From positions 1 through 35,897 of the forward strand of contig JAIEQF010000036.1 of the NCBI GenBank assembly GCA_019747895.1: a stretch of DNA of 35,897 bases. The letters are read 5' to 3'. Position numbers and translations under genes: made by a program. Source of the stretch: Chthoniobacterales bacterium (GTDB lineage: Bacteria > Verrucomicrobiota > Verrucomicrobiia > Chthoniobacterales > UBA6821). Of the stretch, positions 6,123-34,975 are shown in pieces. Under the pieces are notes generated by a model, which saw only the letters and a program-made list of their open reading frames with translations, ran no database searches and had not been told where the DNA came from. The stretch's first letter is position 1; each line of letters starts with the position of its first letter.

Positions 6123-7121
6123 TTAAACAGCCGTCGTTGTTGACGGTGCCACAGCCACAGTTTTATTTACTGCTGAAGCTCCTGTTGGCGTCAGCTTAAG
6201 ACCTGGAAGCAAATCTCCTTCTGTCGTGCCAACCCCTTGTGTGCGGCGCTTGGCCTTACGATCTTCAGAAATGCGAACGACATCTTTGGCCAGTCCGCAT
6301 TTTTCCATGATGCGAATAAGGTAAGAGGAAGGATCAATCTGCCACCATTTCATTCCATGAAAAGCAGAACGAGGAAAAGCGTGATGGTTGTTATGCCATC
6401 CTTCACCCATCGCCAAGATGCCAAAAATAAAATTGTTTTTACTCCGATCTGTTGTTTCAAAATCACGTCCACCAAAAGTATGACAGATCGAGTTGACGGA
6501 CCAGGTCACGTGATGATTGAGGAACACACGAACGAGCCCTCCCCAAAGGAATCCTTCCCAGCAACCTTTTTTGAACCCTTCCATTCCTCCACCATGGAGC
6601 GATAAGATCCATCCACAAACAAGCGTAGGAATGAGAAATCCAAGAAAGACCCAGAACAAAAATGTCTTACTCATGAACATAATCAGACGATCTTTCAAAA
6701 GTGGCCCTGCGTACTTTTCAAGATCGGGTTGAAAATCATCCAAAATCCAACCAACATGGCCGTGGAAAAAACTCTTTATAGGGCTATGAGGATCACCATC
6801 CTCATCAGATTTCGCATGATGCTCAATATGAGTTGCAGCCCAATTTATAGCTGGTCCTTGAAGCGTCATTGATCCCAGACCTAAGAAAAAAGCCCTAATC
6901 CAATCATGTGCTTGAAAGGCTTTATGGGTTAGCATACGATGATACCCAATCGTAATTCCAAAACCTCCTAAAATAAACATTACTAGCATAACGAGAAGTG
7001 CTGGCAGATCTACCATACGATTCCATAAAAGGACAATGGCATAAACAGTAGCCAGGAGAGGTACCCAAACAACAAGAGCTAAAATGATTTTATTGAGGGT
7101 CGAAGATTCTTTTTTACTCAT
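6123..7121 (-). CDS. Fatty acid desaturase (acyl-CoA delta-9 type, membrane di-iron)
   Basis: An integral membrane di-iron desaturase that puts a double bond into acyl chains, with the three histidine boxes of the family: HRMLTH, HIEHH and HNNHH (in HNNHHAFPRSAFHG). Hydrophobic helices lie near residues 10-55 and in the middle (about 150-185). Length is 332 residues from the ATG at 7121 (MSKKESSTLNK), normal for this class. A TTG 51 bp upstream would add a Cys/Trp-containing extension that I consider untranslated. The C-terminal tail (TPTGASAVNKTVAVAPSTTT) is low complexity. It lies next to cyclopropane synthase and glycolipid-synthase-like genes, suggesting a membrane lipid tailoring group. 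Regiospecificity cannot be read from the sequence. Confidence 0.9.
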   Translation of the reverse strand: MSKKESSTLNKIILALVVWVPLLATVYAIVLLWNRMVDLPALLVMLVMFILGGFGITIGYHRMLTHKAFQAHDWIRAFFLGLGSMTLQGPAINWAATHIEHHAKSDEDGDPHSPIKSFFHGHVGWILDDFQPDLEKYAGPLLKDRLIMFMSKTFLFWVFLGFLIPTLVCGWILSLHGGGMEGFKKGCWEGFLWGGLVRVFLNHHVTWSVNSICHTFGGRDFETTDRSKNNFIFGILAMGEGWHNNHHAFPRSAFHGMKWWQIDPSSYLIRIMEKCGLAKDVVRISEDRKAKRRTQGVGTTEGDLLPGLKLTPTGASAVNKTVAVAPSTTTAV

Positions 7122-7199
7122 AAGAGTATTAAGGTAATCGCAACCCCAACAAAAAGCAAGGAAGGGTTGCAAATGCAGCTACCAACGTCTCAACAAAGA

Positions 7200-7298
7200 A
7201 TTCACCACAAAGAACACAAAATAAAATTTTTTATGAAAATTTTTATTTTTTTCCTTTGTGTGCCGCTTTAGCGGCTTTGTGCTCTTTGTGGTGAATTT
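7200..7298. repeat. Inverted repeat with CACAAAGAACACAAA arms
   Basis: Left arm ATTCACCACAAAGAACACAA at 7200-7219, right arm complementary at about 7278-7298, with AT-rich (AAAATTTTTTAT) centre. A small hairpin (GCCGCTTTAGCGGC, 7262-7275) interrupts the right arm. It would fold into one long hairpin between the glycosyltransferase and desaturase genes. Confidence 0.8.
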
Positions 7299-10198: not shown

Positions 10199-10285
10199 CG
10201 GATGGGGAGAGATTCGAACTCTCGGTACCGATAAAGGTACACACGCTTTCCAAGCGTGCGCAATCGACCACTCTGCCACCCATCC
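10199..10285 (-). tRNA. tRNA-Ser (GGA anticodon)
   Basis: Read on the minus strand, the acceptor stem GGATGGG pairs with CCCATCC. The D-arm (GCAGAGTGG...) and anticodon loop CTTGGAAAG give anticodon GGA. The long variable arm is typical of class II serine tRNAs, and the T-loop is GTTCGAATC. The discriminator is G (position 10199), as expected for tRNA-Ser. CCA is not encoded. It is divergent from nuoG. Confidence 0.95.
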
Positions 10286-16614: not shown

Positions 16615-16969
16615 ATGAAGTTGTAGCTGATGCAGCACCAGGAACGAGAATACAGCTGCCCAGGAGGCCCCTGGATGGATTGCTGTTAACCCCAATGGCG
16701 TCAACTTAGTGAACAGAAGAAGAAAATGAGCCACAAAGAACACAAAGAAATCAAAGAGAAACTGGTAGATGCCATCTCTTGAAAAAGAAGATGGGACTTT
16801 GCTTTGAGTACTTTTCCGGATGCTTATAAGCATCCGGAAAGAGAAGATCTTCAAGAAGCACAATAGATTTTCTTCTCAAAATTTCTTTGGTTTCTTTGTG
16901 TTCTTTGTGGCCAATTTCTCTTAAGTTGACGGCATTGACTGAACGTTTACGAATTTTTTAAAATGCTAA
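16602..16969. repeat. Nested compound of inverted repeats filling the 16615-16969 gap
   Basis: Three layers can be seen. The outermost is TAGAGCGTTTTAAATGAAGT (16603 on) against TTTTTTAAAATGCTAA (to 16969), where the left part is the inverted copy of the right half of the 5951-6092 element. The next layer is ATGGCGTCAACTT (about 16696-16708) against AAGTTGACGGCAT (about 16923-16935). The inner one is a CACAAAGAACACAAAGAAAT-armed element (16731-16766 against 16881-16914). Its core includes a perfect 26-bp palindrome at 16814-16839 (TTCCGGATGCTTA and complement). No reading frame is supported here. Confidence 0.75.
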
Positions 16970-23039: not shown

Positions 23040-23205
23040 TATAGTCAAATTACTTAGAAATTACAGGAAAGAACGTAGGAATTTTTAGAAAAGGCCAGGC
23101 CGAAGACCGAGCGCTATCTAAACGATAACGTGACGGGATGAGAACGCAGTCTTTTCCTAAAAAGGACAAGTCAATTGCTTGTAAGTTCTAAGTAATTTGA
23201 CTATA
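23040..23205. mobile_element. 166-bp MITE-like palindromic element, copy 2
   Basis: Same length and termini (TATAGTCAAATTACTTAGAA...complement) as 9980-10145, with about 3 substitutions. It directly abuts a CGCAAAGAA-armed element on its right. It has no coding capacity. It sits in the largest gene-free gap (22978-23411), between the tonB-like and STAS genes. Confidence 0.85.
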
Positions 23206-23396
23206 ACCGCAAAGAACGCAAAGAACGCAAAAAAAGAATTTATAAAAACTATTTTTCTCATTGCACTCTCTCTGCATTGGGCTGCCTACAGACAACCTTT
23301 CAAATAGGCATGCTTATAAAAACACTCGAAACTTTTTAAAAAAGCGCTCGATATATTTTTACTTCTTTGCGCTTTCTTTGCGTTCTTTGCGGTTAA
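23206..23396. repeat. Inverted repeat with CGCAAAGAACGCAAAGAA arms
   Basis: Left arm 23206-23232 (ACCGCAAAGAACGCAAAGAA), right arm 23363-23396 (TTCTTTGCGTTCTTTGCGGT). The core contains GCATGCTTATAA, similar to the GGATGCTTATAAGCAT of the CACAAAGAA elements at 16731-16914 and 33250-33436. It is a G/C variant of the same arm type. Confidence 0.8.
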
Positions 23397-26099: not shown

Positions 26100-26242
26100 G
26101 CGAGGCTATAGACTATAGGCTATAGGAAGTTTGGTTCAAAACATAAACTAAAAAATCAGTTAAACTTATCAAGGAGCAAAAAAATTAACGAAGGTGATGC
26201 TTTGACCTACAGCCTACAGCCTACAGCCTTTAGTCTTAAGCC
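26100..26242. repeat. GGCTATA/GGCTGTA-armed inverted repeat between hldD and exbB
   Basis: Left arm 26102-26127 (AGGCTATAGACTATAGGCTA), right arm about 26203-26240 (CCTACAGCCTACAGCCTACA, then GCCTTTAGTCTTAAGCC), which reaches the hldD stop codon. The loop is about 75 bp. Arms are 7-bp units allowing G-U-like variation. Confidence 0.8.
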
Positions 26243-27246
26243 TCTTCTTCCTCTCCAAAATGTTTTCCGGGCACTAAATAATTTTTAACGTAATCAGTCA
26301 CCGCCGCCTCTAAAGACCATGATGGCTGCTGGTAGCCGGTAGCCAAGAGCTGCGAAACATCGGCACAGGTGTAATATTGATATTGATGTTGAAGATATTC
26401 TGGCATGTCAATGAATTCAATGACTGGCTCACGATCCAACGCCGCAAAAAGAGCTCTCGTTAGATCCAGCCAAGTACGAGGCGTTGCTGTTCCAACATTG
26501 AAAAGACCTCCTATATTTTTAGAACCTGTCTTCGTAAAAGCTAAATGCAAGGTCATTGCTACCGCATCTTTCACATAAACAAAATCGCGCTGCTGCTCTC
26601 CATCACGATAATCATGCCGATCGCTCTTAAAAAGTTTGACCCTTCCTGTTGCCGCAATTTGTTCGTAAGCCTTACAAACGAGACTCCGCATCTCTTTTTT
26701 ATGTCCTTCATTGGGTCCAAAAACATTAAAATATTTGACCCCCACAATCCGATCAAACCATCCTTGATCGCGCGCATGCAGATCAAAAAGATGTTTCGAC
26801 ATGCCATAAAGATTGAGTGGCTTTAATTGATCAAGATTTTCGATCCCATCTTTCATTCCTTGGCTTCCATTGCCATACGTAGCAGCTGAACTGGCATAGA
26901 CAAACCGAATATCGCGCTTCAACGCCCACTCAGCAAGGATCCTGGTGTATTCAAAATTATTTTCCATCAGGTATTCCCTATTGGTCTCTAACGTTGAGGA
27001 ACAGGCCCCTAAATGAAAAATAGTTTTGAGTGAGGCAACTTCTTCGCTCTCTTGCTTCAATTTTTCCAAGAGATCTGAAGCTGAAAGATAAGCCTCATAA
27101 GAAAGAGGCCTTAAGTGATGATGTTTTTCCTCATCGAGAATATCATCAGTCACTAAAATCTTTTTTTCTCCACGCTGATTGAGCGCATGGATGAGCGCGC
27201 TTCCAATAAAGCCAGCGCCACCGGTGACAAGAATTGTTGATTTCAT
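26236..27246 (-). CDS. hldD: ADP-L-glycero-D-manno-heptose 6-epimerase
   Basis: An extended short-chain dehydrogenase that epimerises ADP-D-glycero- to ADP-L-glycero-manno-heptose for the LPS inner core. The 336 residues have an NADP-binding GGAGFIGSALIHALN at the N-terminus (about 9-23), the HLGACSSTLE motif, catalytic Tyr-Lys in LYGMSKHLFD, and VKYFNVFGPNEGHKKEMRS and DGEQQRDFVYVKDA, all strongly HldD-like. ATG at 27246. Neighbouring kdsA and lpt genes also serve LPS assembly. Its final GCT-TAA merges with the adjacent repeat arm. Confidence 0.95.
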   Translation of the reverse strand: MKSTILVTGGAGFIGSALIHALNQRGEKKILVTDDILDEEKHHHLRPLSYEAYLSASDLLEKLKQESEEVASLKTIFHLGACSSTLETNREYLMENNFEYTRILAEWALKRDIRFVYASSAATYGNGSQGMKDGIENLDQLKPLNLYGMSKHLFDLHARDQGWFDRIVGVKYFNVFGPNEGHKKEMRSLVCKAYEQIAATGRVKLFKSDRHDYRDGEQQRDFVYVKDAVAMTLHLAFTKTGSKNIGGLFNVGTATPRTWLDLTRALFAALDREPVIEFIDMPEYLQHQYQYYTCADVSQLLATGYQQPSWSLEAAVTDYVKNYLVPGKHFGEEEEA

Positions 27247-27280
27247 AAATGAAAATTAGTAGCAGAAAAAGAAAAAAAAT

Positions 27281-27373
27281 TGGCCACAAAGAAATCAAAG
27301 AAAAAGCAGATTTTTAATCCTAGAATTTTTTATAAAAAATTCTTTTTTGTTTCTTTGTGTTCTTTGTGGCCAT
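27281..27373. repeat. CACAAAGAA-armed inverted repeat between secDF and hldD
   Basis: Left arm 27281-27303 (TGGCCACAAAGAAATCAAAG), right arm about 27349-27373 (TTTCTTTGTGTTCTTTGTGG), with AT-rich centre (AATTTTTTATAAAAAATT). Folds into one long hairpin. It lies just after the secDF stop and before the hldD leader. Confidence 0.85.
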
Positions 27374-27386
27374 TCTCTTCTTTCCC

Positions 27387-30874: not shown

Positions 30875-31822
30875 TCACCCCTTATTCATAATGTGGAGCA
30901 ACCGATTATTGAACTCTTCAGCAGCATGATGCCCCATCGATTGCAATTTTTGATCGAGGGCAGCAACCTCGACCAGACGCGCTAAATCTCGGCCTGAGCG
31001 CACTGGAATGGTGATATGAGGAACTTTAATACCAAAAATCTCGATTAGCTCGCGATCGAGTCCTGTCCGCTCGATGTGATCCACATCATTCCAATCTTTG
31101 AGCGTCACAATAATATCGAGCCGTTTTTCAGGACGCACGGCACCAATGCCAAAAATAGCAGCCACATTAATCACCCCAATTCCACGAACCTCCATGTGAA
31201 AACGAGTTAAGTCACTACTCGATCCAAAAAGTTCGCGCCCTCCAAAATTTCGGAATCGCGTTATGTCATCGCTCACGAGACTATGCCCGCGCTCGATTAA
31301 TCCTAAGACGCACTCACTTTTACCCACTCCGCTCTTTCCTTTGATGAGGACACCAATTCCAAGAATATCAACCATGCTTCCAAATTCAGAAACATAAGGA
31401 GCAAAAGAATCTTCCAACGCAATCGTGGCCGCGTTAATAAATTCCATCGTAATCATGGAGGTTCTAAAAATGGGCGTTTTGCTCTCCTCTGCAATTTTCA
31501 ACAAGCCTCCAGGCAACGATTGGTTTCTCGAAATAATCAGGCCGGGAATTTTTTTTCTAAACAAAGCGCGCAACCGCATCTCACGTTCTCTTGTAGGAAG
31601 ACGGCGCAGATAACTCAACTCCGCATAGCCTGCTACCTGCAGCCGCTTATAGGCAAAATAACGAAAAAATCCTGCCAGCGCCAATCCAGGACGATTGATC
31701 GTCGGCTCTTTGATGATGCGATTATTTCCTCGCTCCTTGCTCATCAATTCGAGCTTCAACGTCTTTCCATATTTTTTAAAAAACGTCTCAACGCTGATGC
31801 GAGGCGGAAGTTTTTTTTGCAT
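30875..31822 (-). CDS. hprK: HPr kinase/phosphorylase
   Basis: A bifunctional enzyme that phosphorylates and dephosphorylates the regulatory serine of HPr. The 315 residues have an N-terminal domain (about 1-130, including GLIISRNQSLPGGLLKIAEE) and a C-terminal kinase domain. The kinase domain has Walker A GKSGVGKSECVLGLIERGHS (about 160) and the HprK signature FHMEVRGIGVINVAAIFGIG, followed by PVRSGRDLARLVEVAA. ATG at 31822 lies 26 bp downstream of the lptB stop, so it is probably co-transcribed with lptB. The order lptB-hprK-ptsH resembles the proteobacterial lptB-rpoN-hpf-ptsN-hprK-ptsH cluster without rpoN, hpf and ptsN. Confidence 0.95.
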   Translation of the reverse strand: MQKKLPPRISVETFFKKYGKTLKLELMSKERGNNRIIKEPTINRPGLALAGFFRYFAYKRLQVAGYAELSYLRRLPTREREMRLRALFRKKIPGLIISRNQSLPGGLLKIAEESKTPIFRTSMITMEFINAATIALEDSFAPYVSEFGSMVDILGIGVLIKGKSGVGKSECVLGLIERGHSLVSDDITRFRNFGGRELFGSSSDLTRFHMEVRGIGVINVAAIFGIGAVRPEKRLDIIVTLKDWNDVDHIERTGLDRELIEIFGIKVPHITIPVRSGRDLARLVEVAALDQKLQSMGHHAAEEFNNRLLHIMNKG

Positions 31823-31848
31823 AAAATTAATTTAACTACTTAATTTTT

Positions 31849-32592
31849 TTACATCGAAAAACCTTCTCCGAGATAAAGCTTACGACTAATCGGATCGTGC
31901 AGAAGAAAATCTTTGTCTCCTTGGCTCTCGACGCGGCCTTCAAAAATGAGATAAGCGCGATCCGTAATAGCCAAGGTCTCACGAACATTGTGATCCGTAA
32001 TAATAATCGCAAGTCCCATGGATCGCAGATCTGAAATAACTTGCTGCACATCATAAACAGCAATTGGATCAACACCGCTAAAAGGTTCGTCCAACATCAG
32101 CATCGAAGGATTGGTCACCAACGACCGAGCAATAGTCAAGCGGCGCTTTTCTCCACCACTAAGGGTAAGCGCTTCATTTTTTGCAAGATGATCAATGCCA
32201 AAACGCGTGAGGAGCTCTTCGCAGCGATCTTTTTGCGCTTGGGGAGTTAATGAAGTTGTTTGCAAAATGGACATGATATTTTCTTGCACGGTCATCTTGC
32301 GAAAGATTGACTCTTCCTGAGGAAGGTACCCCATTCCAAGCCGCGCCCGCTTGTACATCGGCTCATGTGTTACATCAACGCCATTAAAAAAAGTCTTCCC
32401 TCCATCAGGGCGTACAAGCCCAACGATCATGTAAAACGTTGTTGTCTTTCCGGCACCATTGGGACCCAACAATCCGACAATCTCGCCAGGCTTAACATTA
32501 ATATCGATTCCATTGACAACAGAACGGCCGTTGTAAATTTTGACAAGACCTTCAGTCTTTAAAATGAAATTTTCGGATGGGGTAGATGTCAT
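31849..32592 (-). CDS. lptB: LPS export ABC transporter ATP-binding protein LptB
   Basis: The cytoplasmic ATPase of the LptB2FG transporter that extracts LPS from the inner membrane. The 247 residues have Walker A GLLGPNGAGKTTTFY (about 36-50), the Q-loop region GYLPQEESIFRKMTV, signature LSGGEKRRLTIARSL and Walker B MLMLDEPFSGVDP, followed by the D- and H-loops (ITDHNVRETL). The sequence is strongly LptB rather than a generic ABC protein. ATG at 32592 has no Shine-Dalgarno sequence, and a heptamer array begins about 10 bp upstream. lptA and lptC precede it; lptF and lptG are not in the window. Confidence 0.96.
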   Translation of the reverse strand: MTSTPSENFILKTEGLVKIYNGRSVVNGIDINVKPGEIVGLLGPNGAGKTTTFYMIVGLVRPDGGKTFFNGVDVTHEPMYKRARLGMGYLPQEESIFRKMTVQENIMSILQTTSLTPQAQKDRCEELLTRFGIDHLAKNEALTLSGGEKRRLTIARSLVTNPSMLMLDEPFSGVDPIAVYDVQQVISDLRSMGLAIIITDHNVRETLAITDRAYLIFEGRVESQGDKDFLLHDPISRKLYLGEGFSM

Positions 32593-32600
32593 TGCAGCAG

Positions 32601-32629
32601 ATTACAGGTTGCAGGTTGCAGGTTACAGG
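32601..32629. repeat. GGTTGCA/GGTTACA heptamer array in the lptB leader
   Basis: About four 7-bp units (ATTACAGGTTGCAGGTTGCA, then GGTTACAGG) lie between the lptA stop and the lptB start, about 9 bp from the start codon. Confidence 0.8.
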
Positions 32630-32655
32630 CAAAAATAATTCTTCTGACTTTTTTC

Positions 32656-33333
32656 TCATTTACTCCCTGTCGCTTCTTTTTCTTGTTCTCCGGCATCCAA
32701 AATCATGGTCCGTGTTTGACCCTTAGTGTGAAACGTTCCCTTGCTATTGAGCACCATCACTGTGCTCGCTTCGGTGGCTACCTGGAAATTTTTTCCCTGC
32801 CGGACTTGAGGCCATTGTTGAGGCAGTGAATTAGGCCATGCTTTGAGCGTGATATCCCCTGTCGCAGGCTCATAAACAGCCACTTCGGCCTTGCCTGCTG
32901 ATTTGACTTTTTCTCCAGAGTCATTTGTTCCTTGCTGCTCAATATTGACATTTCCAGTCGCCGTCACCAATTGAAGACCTTGCCGATTTTTATTCATCAC
33001 GACATTCAGCCGGTCACAGGTCAACGTAAATTGAGGATCTTGCACCACGACTTTTCCAAAAAATTCCACCGTATTACTACCATCGTCAAACCAAGCTCCA
33101 TCTTGAGCATCAATGACCGTACGCGCATCTTGTGGTCGAGGTTGATGACCAAAATTAAAACTCCAAGGGCTCGAGGGAGCTGGCGTCGGAGCCGGCGTTG
33201 AAACCGCTGTGGAACTTGCTTTTTGGGCTTGGGCAGAAGAAAAGAAATTAGCCACAAAGAACACAAAAAAGCACAAAGAAAAACTTACAGATGCCTTTTC
33301 TTGAAAAAGAAAACCATGCTTTTCTTTGAACAT
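32656..33333 (-). CDS. lptA: LptA/OstA-like periplasmic LPS transport protein with repeat-encoded signal peptide
   Basis: An OstA-type beta-jellyroll protein that would bridge LPS across the periplasm. The domain (about 60-190 from this start) has FNFGHQPRPQDARTVIDAQD, VEFFGKVVVQDPQFTLTCDR, LNVVMNKNRQGLQLVTATGN and VNIEQQG. The gene order lptC-lptA-lptB supports the call. Three in-frame ATGs (33435, 33387, 33333) all lie in a CACAAAGAA-type inverted repeat. I choose 33333, because MFKEKHGFLFQEKASVSFSL then CFFVFFVANFFSSAQA-QK forms a convincing Sec signal. Its hydrophobic core (CFFVFFVANFF) is the translated repeat arm. A longer N-terminus (MATKNTKNTENFSQ) from 33435 is possible. The length from 33333 is 225 residues. 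Confidence 0.78.
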   Translation of the reverse strand: MFKEKHGFLFQEKASVSFSLCFFVFFVANFFSSAQAQKASSTAVSTPAPTPAPSSPWSFNFGHQPRPQDARTVIDAQDGAWFDDGSNTVEFFGKVVVQDPQFTLTCDRLNVVMNKNRQGLQLVTATGNVNIEQQGTNDSGEKVKSAGKAEVAVYEPATGDITLKAWPNSLPQQWPQVRQGKNFQVATEASTVMVLNSKGTFHTKGQTRTMILDAGEQEKEATGSK

Positions 33334-33436
33334 TTTTTTCGGATGCTTATAAGCATTCGAAAAAGGAAAGAGATTCAAAAAGAACATTATTCTCTGTGAA
33401 AAATTCTCTGTGTTCTTTGTGTTCTTTGTGGCCATT
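33250..33436. repeat. CACAAAGAA-armed inverted repeat overlapping the lptA 5' end
   Basis: Left arm 33250-33281 (GCCACAAAGAACACAAAAAA then GCACAAAGAA), right arm about 33402-33434 (TCTGTGTTCTTTGTGTTCTT then TGTGGCC). The core (TTCTTGAAAAAGAA, then TTCGGATGCTTATAAGCATT) is homologous to the 16731-16914 element. The element supplies the possible start codons and the signal-peptide core of the LptA-like protein. Confidence 0.88.
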
Positions 33437-33467
33437 CTTCTTTGTCTTGTTTTCTTTGCGGGGTTAA

Positions 33468-33950
33468 TTAATTCTGCGCTGCTCCATTTCTAATGTCTGT
33501 ATGCACATGCCCCTTCATCGTGCCAAAACGCTTCGTCGTATCAAACGTTGCTGAATCTCCAACCATCAAAAAATCTTCTCGCTTGATGGTCGTCGTGCTC
33601 TGCGCAGAGAGAAGGGTATTTGCTAAATTAAACATCGCTTCAGAAGCCGTCACCGTCATATCTTTTCCATCCTTTTCAAAAAACTCAATTTTTAAACCAT
33701 GAATGGTGACATTGTGTTCATCGGTTTTACGAGCGGTCTCACAACTCAACTTCATCTTCAATTTCCCATCAGCATCATATTGAGGAATCGTAATTCCTTT
33801 CATCTCTTCGCCGACAGGGGCTGGAAGGTCGATCTCATCGGACTTAGCTGCTACCGCTTTAGCAGAAGGAGGAGCAACCGTTGTCGTCTCGGGACTAGCC
33901 GCTCTCACTATTGATAGTGTCATCAAAAAAATACAAATAAAGAAGCGCAT
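33468..33950 (-). CDS. lptC: LptC-like LPS export protein
   Basis: A 160-residue exported or membrane-tethered protein with an N-terminal signal or anchor (MRFFICIFLMTLSIVRA-AS), a short Ala/Pro linker and a single LptC/OstA-like beta domain: IPQYDADGKLKMKLSCETAR, KIEFFEKDGKDMTVTASEAM, STTTIKREDFLMVGDSATFD, GTMKGHVHTDIRN. The pattern of repeated beta strands (a more-reduced substrate, free and modified forms) is that of LptC proteins coupling LptB2FG to LptA. It lies directly upstream of lptA (32 bp from the longest lptA reading) and 5 bp downstream of the DUF1016 gene. Cleavage after VRA is plausible, in which case it would be periplasmic rather than anchored. Confidence 0.8.
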   Translation of the reverse strand: MRFFICIFLMTLSIVRAASPETTTVAPPSAKAVAAKSDEIDLPAPVGEEMKGITIPQYDADGKLKMKLSCETARKTDEHNVTIHGLKIEFFEKDGKDMTVTASEAMFNLANTLLSAQSTTTIKREDFLMVGDSATFDTTKRFGTMKGHVHTDIRNGAAQN

Positions 33951-33955
33951 GATGA

Positions 33956-34975
33956 TTAGAAATTTTTACTTAACTCTGCTTCCAAAGTTTCAATACTTGG
34001 TAGAGCAACACTAAGCTGTTCTGGCAAAGCATGACTTAATTGGTATTGAGCTAAACCAATGGGCTTGGCCATATCGCGAAGCGCATATTCTGCCAAAACA
34101 TTATTTTTAGACTTACAAAGAATGAGACCGATAGACGGATGATCGTGAGAATCTTTAATGAGGTCATCAACAGCTGAAAGATAAAAATTCATTTTCCCTG
34201 CATACTCTGGCTTGAAATCATGGTCCTTAAGTTCGATAACAACAAAACAGCGAAGTTTTAAATGATAAAAAAGAAGATCAATATAAAAGTCTTGTTCTCC
34301 AACTTCAAGGTGATATTGACGACCAACAAACGCAAAGCCTGCTCCTAATTCTAATAAGAATTTTTCCATATGCTGAATCAGCGCTTTTTCCACTTCTCGT
34401 TCCTGAGCTTCCTCCCCAATGCTTAAAAAATCAAAAAGATAAGGATCTTTAAGAATGCTATGCGCTAAATCTGACTGAGACTGCGGTAATTTTTCCTTGA
34501 AGTTCGTAATCGCTTTTCCCTGACGCTCATGAAGACTAGATTCTATTTGATGAACCATCACATTACGAGACCAGCTGTGCTCTAAGGCTTTTTTAATATA
34601 GAACACTCTATTTTCTCTATCGGAAATTTTGTCTAGCAAAGTGGTATGATGATACCATGACAATTGTGCAAGCACCTCCTGCACAAATTCGATCTCCGGA
34701 TATTCCTGAGCAAACTTTCGCATGTATTTGAGATTTCTGGGGCTAAAACCTTTCATCTCCGGAAAAGCAGACCTCAAATCATGACTCAATTGATCGATCA
34801 CTTTTGCACCCCAACCATGTTCTTGTTGAGATCTAAGAATTTCTTTTCCTACATGATGATAGAGTAAAATAAGCCCTGTATTAAGAGTGCGAGCAGCCTG
34901 ATAACGTGCCGTGGCTACGCGTTGTTTCAGATCATCTAAAAAATGCTGATAGGTCCCAATATTTTGAATACTCAT
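33956..34975 (-). CDS. DUF1016 / PDDEXK nuclease domain protein (YhcG type)
   Basis: The 339-residue protein matches the YhcG/DUF1016 family. An N-terminal helical domain (about 10-150) has LNTGLILLYHHVGKEILRSQ, GWGAKVIDQLSHDLRSAFPE and GFSPRNLKYMRKFAQEYP. The C-terminal PDDEXK nuclease domain (about 175-330) has DPYLFDFL, the catalytic Asp in EQDFYIDLLFYHLKLRCFVV and the ExK in IELKDHDFKPEYAGKMNFYL. Members occur as accessory-genome genes, often near restriction or transposable elements; the biological role is not well settled. It is sandwiched between kdsA (12 bp) and lptC (5 bp), an unusual place, suggesting horizontal insertion that preserved operon transcription. ATG at 34975 gives MSIQNIGTYQHFLDDLKQRV. 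Confidence 0.9.
   Translation of the reverse strand: MSIQNIGTYQHFLDDLKQRVATARYQAARTLNTGLILLYHHVGKEILRSQQEHGWGAKVIDQLSHDLRSAFPEMKGFSPRNLKYMRKFAQEYPEIEFVQEVLAQLSWYHHTTLLDKISDRENRVFYIKKALEHSWSRNVMVHQIESSLHERQGKAITNFKEKLPQSQSDLAHSILKDPYLFDFLSIGEEAQEREVEKALIQHMEKFLLELGAGFAFVGRQYHLEVGEQDFYIDLLFYHLKLRCFVVIELKDHDFKPEYAGKMNFYLSAVDDLIKDSHDHPSIGLILCKSKNNVLAEYALRDMAKPIGLAQYQLSHALPEQLSVALPSIETLEAELSKNF

Follow-up and report, generated by a model that had tools for sequence, protein, structure and literature searches.

The stretch analysed here (the window) comprised all 35,897 nucleotides of contig JAIEQF010000036.1 from a lake-dwelling Chthoniobacterales bacterium (assembly GCA_019747895.1), a 2.06-Mb draft genome that we call G000 and of which the window is contig C33. 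It carries lptA, a gene of lipopolysaccharide (LPS) transport, and the 5' end of this gene was covered by an inverted-repeat element. The features of the locus were as follows, with a slash marking a predicted cleavage point:

32656-33435, minus strand: lptA, with an LptD_N/LptA domain at residues 116-198 (PF03968, E=4e-7)
33468-33950, minus strand: lptC, directly upstream of lptA (PF06835, E=4e-5)
31849-32592, minus strand: lptB-like ABC ATPase, directly downstream of lptA (PF00005; role from context)
33251-33435, minus strand: full-length inverted-repeat element over the lptA 5' end, two arms and a palindromic centre (7 full-length genome copies; 78% identity to 16724-16913)
33251-33282, minus strand: right arm, TTTTTCTTTGTGCTTTTTTGTGTTCTTTGTGGC as read on the lptA strand, coding for the hydrophobic core FSLCFFVFFVA (score 29 against arms elsewhere; highest of 500 shuffles 18)
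33404-33432, minus strand: left arm, GCCACAAAGAACACAAAGAACACAGAGAA, which if translated would be polar/basic ATKNTKNTE
33335-33364, no strand assigned: central palindrome, TTTTTCGGATGCTTATAAGCATTCGAAAAA
33331-33333, minus strand: likeliest lptA start ATG, product MFKEKHGFLFQEKASVSFSLCFFVFFVANFFSSAQA/Q

The identity of lptA was given by the LptA/LptD_N domain together with lptC and an ABC ATPase as neighbours. The element was ~185 bp long (~185-190 bp); its arms read GCCACAAAGAACACAAAG / CTTTGTGTTCTTTGTGGC and flanked a palindromic centre. At lptA, the arms paired between 33240-33270 and 33413-33443 (31 nt, 81% complementary), and across elements the terminal inverted repeats were 31-34 nt long with 81-91% complementarity, a length and repeat structure of the kind that defines a miniature inverted-repeat transposable element (MITE). 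The lptA reading frame ran uninterrupted through the element. As the first-pass annotation had claimed, the three ATG codons (33435, 33387 and 33333) all lay inside the element or at its very edge, as did the alternative starts TTG 33378, TTG 33276, GTG 33264 and GTG 33255. That annotation had also placed the hydrophobic core CFFVFFVANFF in the repeat, which held as far as 'VA': the right arm coded for SLCFFVFFVA, and the next residues, NFFSSAQA/QKASS, came mostly from flanking DNA. The cleavage region SSAQA/Q proved to be flanking DNA and not part of the repeat, conserved as SSAQAQ / SAAQAQ in the two closest relatives. We infer that translation starts at ATG 33333 and that the peptide is used for export and cleaved; from this codon the signal peptide would be 36 aa long, with a charge of +1 before the core, a hydropathy of 2.61 over 12 core residues and a terminal A-x-A motif (AQA), and the longer starts would give 54 or 70 aa. 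An ATG at the lptC end was not used as a dead ancestral lptA start, since it lies within the lptC coding sequence.

The closest relatives compared were G005 (JAPLTJ01, LacPavin) and G002 (VHCR01, a deep-cast metagenome-assembled genome), both Verrucomicrobiia/Verrucomicrobia metagenome assemblies, and a tree from four genes gave ((G000,G005),G002) with support 0.999. In agreement with the first-pass annotation, mature LptA was conserved (90% identity to G000 in G005, 83% in G002) beside N-termini that differed. The LptA N-terminus of G005 read MERRRIKILFSMTINSFLISFLLMLFFSSAQAQ, and lptA there lacked an intact element; the N-terminus of G002 read MSLLNKIKTAGIKKRIPFLVFLFCVSLRSFAAIFFSAAQAQ, with a CGC-type variant of the element at the same junction and the same right junction as in G000. 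Arm identity was scored by comparing signal-peptide DNA exclusively with arms found at other loci, and the null came from 500 dinucleotide-preserving shuffles. By this measure, lptA scored 29 in G000 (null maximum 18) and 27 in G002 (null maximum 17), each reached by 0/500 shuffles, and the signal DNA of G005 scored 18, which 1/500 shuffles reached, so that it may be an eroded arm. The history of lptA was thus either one site hit twice by insertion or an older insertion since eroded in G005, and the predicted LptA signal of G000 is arm-encoded under both. The annotated proposal that a mobile-type repeat had replaced or supplied the LptA export signal was upheld for the arm origin; since erosion of an arm could have left the signal peptide of G005, both 'replaced' and 'supplied earlier' fit the comparison.

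The further suggestion that such repeats could repeatedly create signal peptides was borne out by putative cases at four other genes and in an unrelated lineage. Gene B, for which no Pfam family was found, read MKKFTLIISFFAFFVFFCGYFAVALSAAS in G000, with the arm as core, and MKTNLLFCCFVIFLTTLSAAS and MKIHLLFNCFTAFFITVSFAA in G005 and G002, both arm-free, with the c-region LSAAS common to G000 and G005. This is the cleanest case, as the G000 arm has replaced an ordinary signal peptide kept by both relatives, the change being polarised by the tree. A DUF362 gene carried the arm in G002 only, and there both the n-region and the start codon would come from it (GTG-FFVVNSFYQFIGLFFLVGVSLWA); in G000 and G005 the gene began MKLFSLIGILF(F/C)WGN(V/A)(L/F)AS. 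An SBP_bac_5 lipoprotein began MRSFVAI in G000 and G005, its first base differing from the arm TTGCGTTCTTTTGTGGCTATT (TTG to ATG), with one further change from that arm in G005; in G002 it had a different arm (KKKSLRLILFLFFLVLASC), and in G001 and G003 it was without an arm. A TPM-domain gene began MRSLW in G000, G005 and G002, and not in G001. In the distant lineage, a protein stretch of ~470 residues was nearly identical in G208 and G267 (one family) and in G421 (another), with signal cores NLRRYAVSAALFVCFAATA/EVF in G421 (L303) and NLRLCALCVLCGKSVVSLSA/EVF in G208 and G267 (L336/L341), the latter core being encoded by CTTTGCGCTCTTTGCGTTCTTTGCGGC. An arm-encoded core and another core thus appear to have been swapped beside a near-identical protein, a comparison compatible with either direction of change.

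Among these genes, scores that 0/500 shuffles reached were 32 for gene B in G000 (null maximum 19), 22 for the DUF362 gene in G002 (18), and 21 and 19 for the lipoprotein in G000 and G005 (19 and 16). The lipoprotein of G002 scored 18 (1/500) and the TPM-domain gene 20 (0 and 1/500, G002 being the 1/500), and arm-free orthologous signal peptides scored 9-12, the same as their null of 60 shuffles each. Because the genes were found by looking for arms, these scores confirm arm identity only; the independent evidence is the swapping of N-termini beside conserved mature proteins. Several further candidates fell away: gene F (MRSLWF...) was weak, with a score of 15 that 8/500 shuffles reached; the MRSFW... 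genes at C48:24752 and in G005 were rejected, as they had the motif at the start and neither the arm nor a signal-like N-terminus; and most in-frame arms of the genome scan were 5'-untranslated.

The window held 16 matches to the arm pattern against 0.58 expected, a number reached by 0/100 shuffles. The homologous non-coding copy named in the first-pass annotation was recovered, along with other elements:

16724-16913, no strand assigned: intergenic full-length copy of the lptA element, 78% identical along its full length
23203-23395, no strand assigned: CGC-type element, arms CGCAAAGAACGCAAAG
27273-27376, no strand assigned: short element just upstream of the minus-strand gene 26236-27246, also present in G005
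7206-7290, no strand assigned: short element upstream of the minus-strand gene 6123-7172
33442-33468, minus strand: possible relic of a CGC-type left arm (CCCCGCAAAGAAAACAAGACAAAG) between lptC and the lptA element (by eye, no statistics)

Besides its 7 full-length copies, the G000 genome had many arm-only sites. With up to 3 mismatches allowed, arm sites numbered 222 in G000, 146 in G005, 122 in G002 and 0 in each of three more distant congeners, and the control, a reversed pattern, gave 0 sites in the G000 genome. The sites were dispersed in the many copies expected of a MITE, mostly just upstream of genes, and in a genome-wide scan of G000, G005 and G002, most sense arms stopped 5-20 codons ahead of the gene's own start. 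The elements may also shape the 5' leaders and translation of many genes in these three genomes. Across 388 sampled Verrucomicrobiota genomes, the exact arm unit was found in 23, in a patchy distribution, with 0 matches for the control; it was expanded in several unrelated families (e.g. G324, G383, G208, G267 and G293) and absent from most. This patchy spread suggests horizontal movement. A literature search on the arm sequence and on GxxExxY repeats found nothing relevant.

Over a syntenic stretch of ~11 kb, G000 and G005 had one element in common, two were confined to G005 and one, the intact lptA element, to G000. The gene B element was present in G000 only, an occupied site facing empty ones, as is looked for in a bacterial MITE. 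No clean target site duplication was seen by eye in the occupied/empty pairs. The element was MITE-like by form, and we infer its mobility from presence and absence rather than from a transposase or clear target duplications. In the hprK-lptB spacer of G005 (L144, G005:C146), there was a tandem-arm element and ~250 bp of extra DNA, against a spacer of ~28 bp in G000 (window 31819-31849).

The composition of the arm indicated why it can read as a signal core. Its 9-nt unit was stop-free in all frames and stayed in frame on repetition: TTCTTTGTG gave FFV, SLC and LCV, and TTCTTTGCG gave FFA, SLR and LCV, with HKE, TKN and QRT from the complement. Arm readings were thus mostly hydrophobic in three frames and those of the complement polar and basic; whichever way round it lies, an inverted repeat of such units therefore opens with a polar-basic reading and closes with a hydrophobic one. 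The worst-frame hydrophobicity of TTCTTTGTG was matched by only 0.4% of all 9-mers. Random sequences reportedly served as export signals at appreciable rates in work by Kaiser and colleagues from 1987.

The element, its coding position, the conserved mature proteins with swapped N-termini and the recurrence of such swaps were observed directly. Very probably, a multicopy MITE-like repeat came to lie at the lptC-lptA junction, the right arm was taken into translation as the signal peptide of LptA, and the process was a recurrent one. Elements accumulate just upstream of genes, and because the element is an inverted repeat, its downstream end is always TTCTTTG(T/C)G-TTCTTTG(T/C)G-GC. Since this arm is stop-free and hydrophobic and the other arm polar-basic, an insertion beside an exported gene could capture the n- and h-regions through a new start codon or by joining of frames, leaving the c-region and mature protein in place; as most sense arms end 5-20 codons before gene starts, a small change could fuse arm to gene. 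At lptA, translation would most likely begin at ATG 33333, in the middle of the element, pass through the right arm as hydrophobic core and then meet the old c-region SSAQA/Q, a predicted signal peptidase I site. A broader proposal, to which we give an even chance, is that the TTCTTTGYG arm acts as a portable signal-peptide core that has repeatedly made export signals in unrelated Verrucomicrobiota lineages, including that of an LPS-transport gene, with repeat turnover as a main driver of signal-peptide turnover there.

Several observations weighed against an arm-derived signal. Of all permutations of the T-rich unit, half were equally hydrophobic in all frames, indicating that this hydrophobicity is due to T-rich composition. 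The best 12-residue window of the LptA core (mean hydropathy 2.61) was Phe-rich and no better than those of the relatives (2.60-3.14). The openness of the lptA copy over 61 codons was nothing special, as copy C36:7719 was fully open too, and openness was rejected as a sign of selection. A strong hairpin was predicted for the lptA transcript (-73.8 kcal/mol, z -7.9); the likely start codon falls inside it, which may hinder initiation or affect translation of lptA. The other genes were picked by arm search, so that the presence of an arm in them is not independent evidence in the way that the orthologue swaps are, and all genomes were drafts of 55 to 350 contigs.

Among other explanations, one is a version of the same arm-derived origin with a different history, and we place it somewhat short of an even chance: an insertion at lptA before the split of G000, G005 and G002, after which G002 kept a CGC-type copy, G005 eroded the right arm and G000 acquired a second, nested CAC-type copy. 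It would account for the right junction common to G000 and G002, G(T/C)GGCTA(A/T)TTTCTTTTCT, for the CGC-like stretch between lptC and the element in G000 and for the match of the G005 signal DNA to an arm from elsewhere; that match, however, falls within T-rich DNA of low complexity and partly reflects common descent with the G000 flank; a T-rich signal peptide could resemble an arm by chance. It is unlikely that the repeat is only 5'-untranslated DNA, with translation of LptA beginning further downstream or yielding a cytoplasmic protein that lacks a leader. Most sense arms elsewhere are indeed 5'-untranslated, and a hairpin could regulate translation, yet no ATG, GTG or TTG occurred from the arm to codon 123 of lptA (GTG, 33069), which falls within the mature domain; the conserved SSAQA/Q would be untranslated and nevertheless stays in frame; and LptA acts in the periplasm and must be exported. 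Convergence, by which signal peptides T-rich at codon position 2 in an A/T-rich genome would yield arm-like DNA by chance, is very unlikely. Hydrophobic readings do follow from composition alone, and the weak cases (gene F, and the TPM-domain gene in G002) could be chance; lptA, however, has the entire element, from one arm through the centre to the other; the matches in lptA, gene B and gene D, 22 to 32 nt long, stood far above shuffles, with arm-free orthologues at the null; and convergence was already excluded for lptA and gene B in G000. Equally improbable is a repeat-mediated misjoin that placed the element in lptA, for although the assemblies are drafts and the repeat has >100 copies, the frame and the synteny (kdsA-yhcG-lptC-lptA-lptB, also in G005) were intact through the element, G002 independently carries an element at the same place and the lptA copy was at most 78% identical to any other full-length copy, unlike in a misjoin of identical repeats.

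Signal peptides predicted from a MITE are already known. The Yersinia palindromic element YPAL / RU-2 contributes a predicted signal peptide to YPO1552, and the signal sequences of YPO1552 relatives from other genera bear no relation to RU-2 (Delihas 2007 PMC2759123; 2008 PMC2229807). The likeness is one of description: there, the prediction concerns one putative exported protein, whereas here a conserved LPS-transport gene was compared among close orthologues, several genes and lineages were involved and the arm was hydrophobic in more than one frame. Rickettsia palindromic elements, of 100-150 bp, are translated in frame inside conserved genes (Ogata et al. 2000, via PMC2229807 and PMC10969869). 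Again likened by description, those are fusions within conserved and metabolic genes, and what these later accounts say of them does not mention signal peptides; here, an N-terminal export signal would be supplied or replaced with the core protein untouched. In enterobacteria, ERIC / RU-1f fusions with a frame-shifted, hydrophobic-rich reading give predicted membrane segments (Delihas 2007), mostly at small, possibly non-functional loci, in contrast to the conserved genes with arm-free orthologues described here. In a MITE review from 2024, the term signal peptide does not appear. The comparative evidence is stronger here than in Yersinia, and what is new is the number of cases, the conserved LPS-transport gene, the near-sister comparisons, the several frames and the distant lineages.

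Although signal peptides turn over fast, it is seldom possible to see what new ones are made from. Judged from sequence, this repeat family would be an example of mobile DNA that hands out export signals, doing so repeatedly, in different frames, beside conserved mature proteins and across distant lineages, and the orthologues that lack an arm provide before/after comparisons. How bacterial export signals arise from non-coding DNA can thereby be tested directly with short reporter constructs.

Elsewhere in the window, a YhcG/DUF1016 PDDEXK nuclease gene (33956-34975) lay between kdsA and lptC, inside the synteny with G005. An Rfam scan of the window returned only a tRNA (10199-10285, minus strand). 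Short tandem stretches of a second repeat kind occurred in intergenic spacers at 32610-32630 and 26190-26225 (GCAGGTTGCAGGTTACAGG; CTACAGCCTACAGCCTACAGCC).
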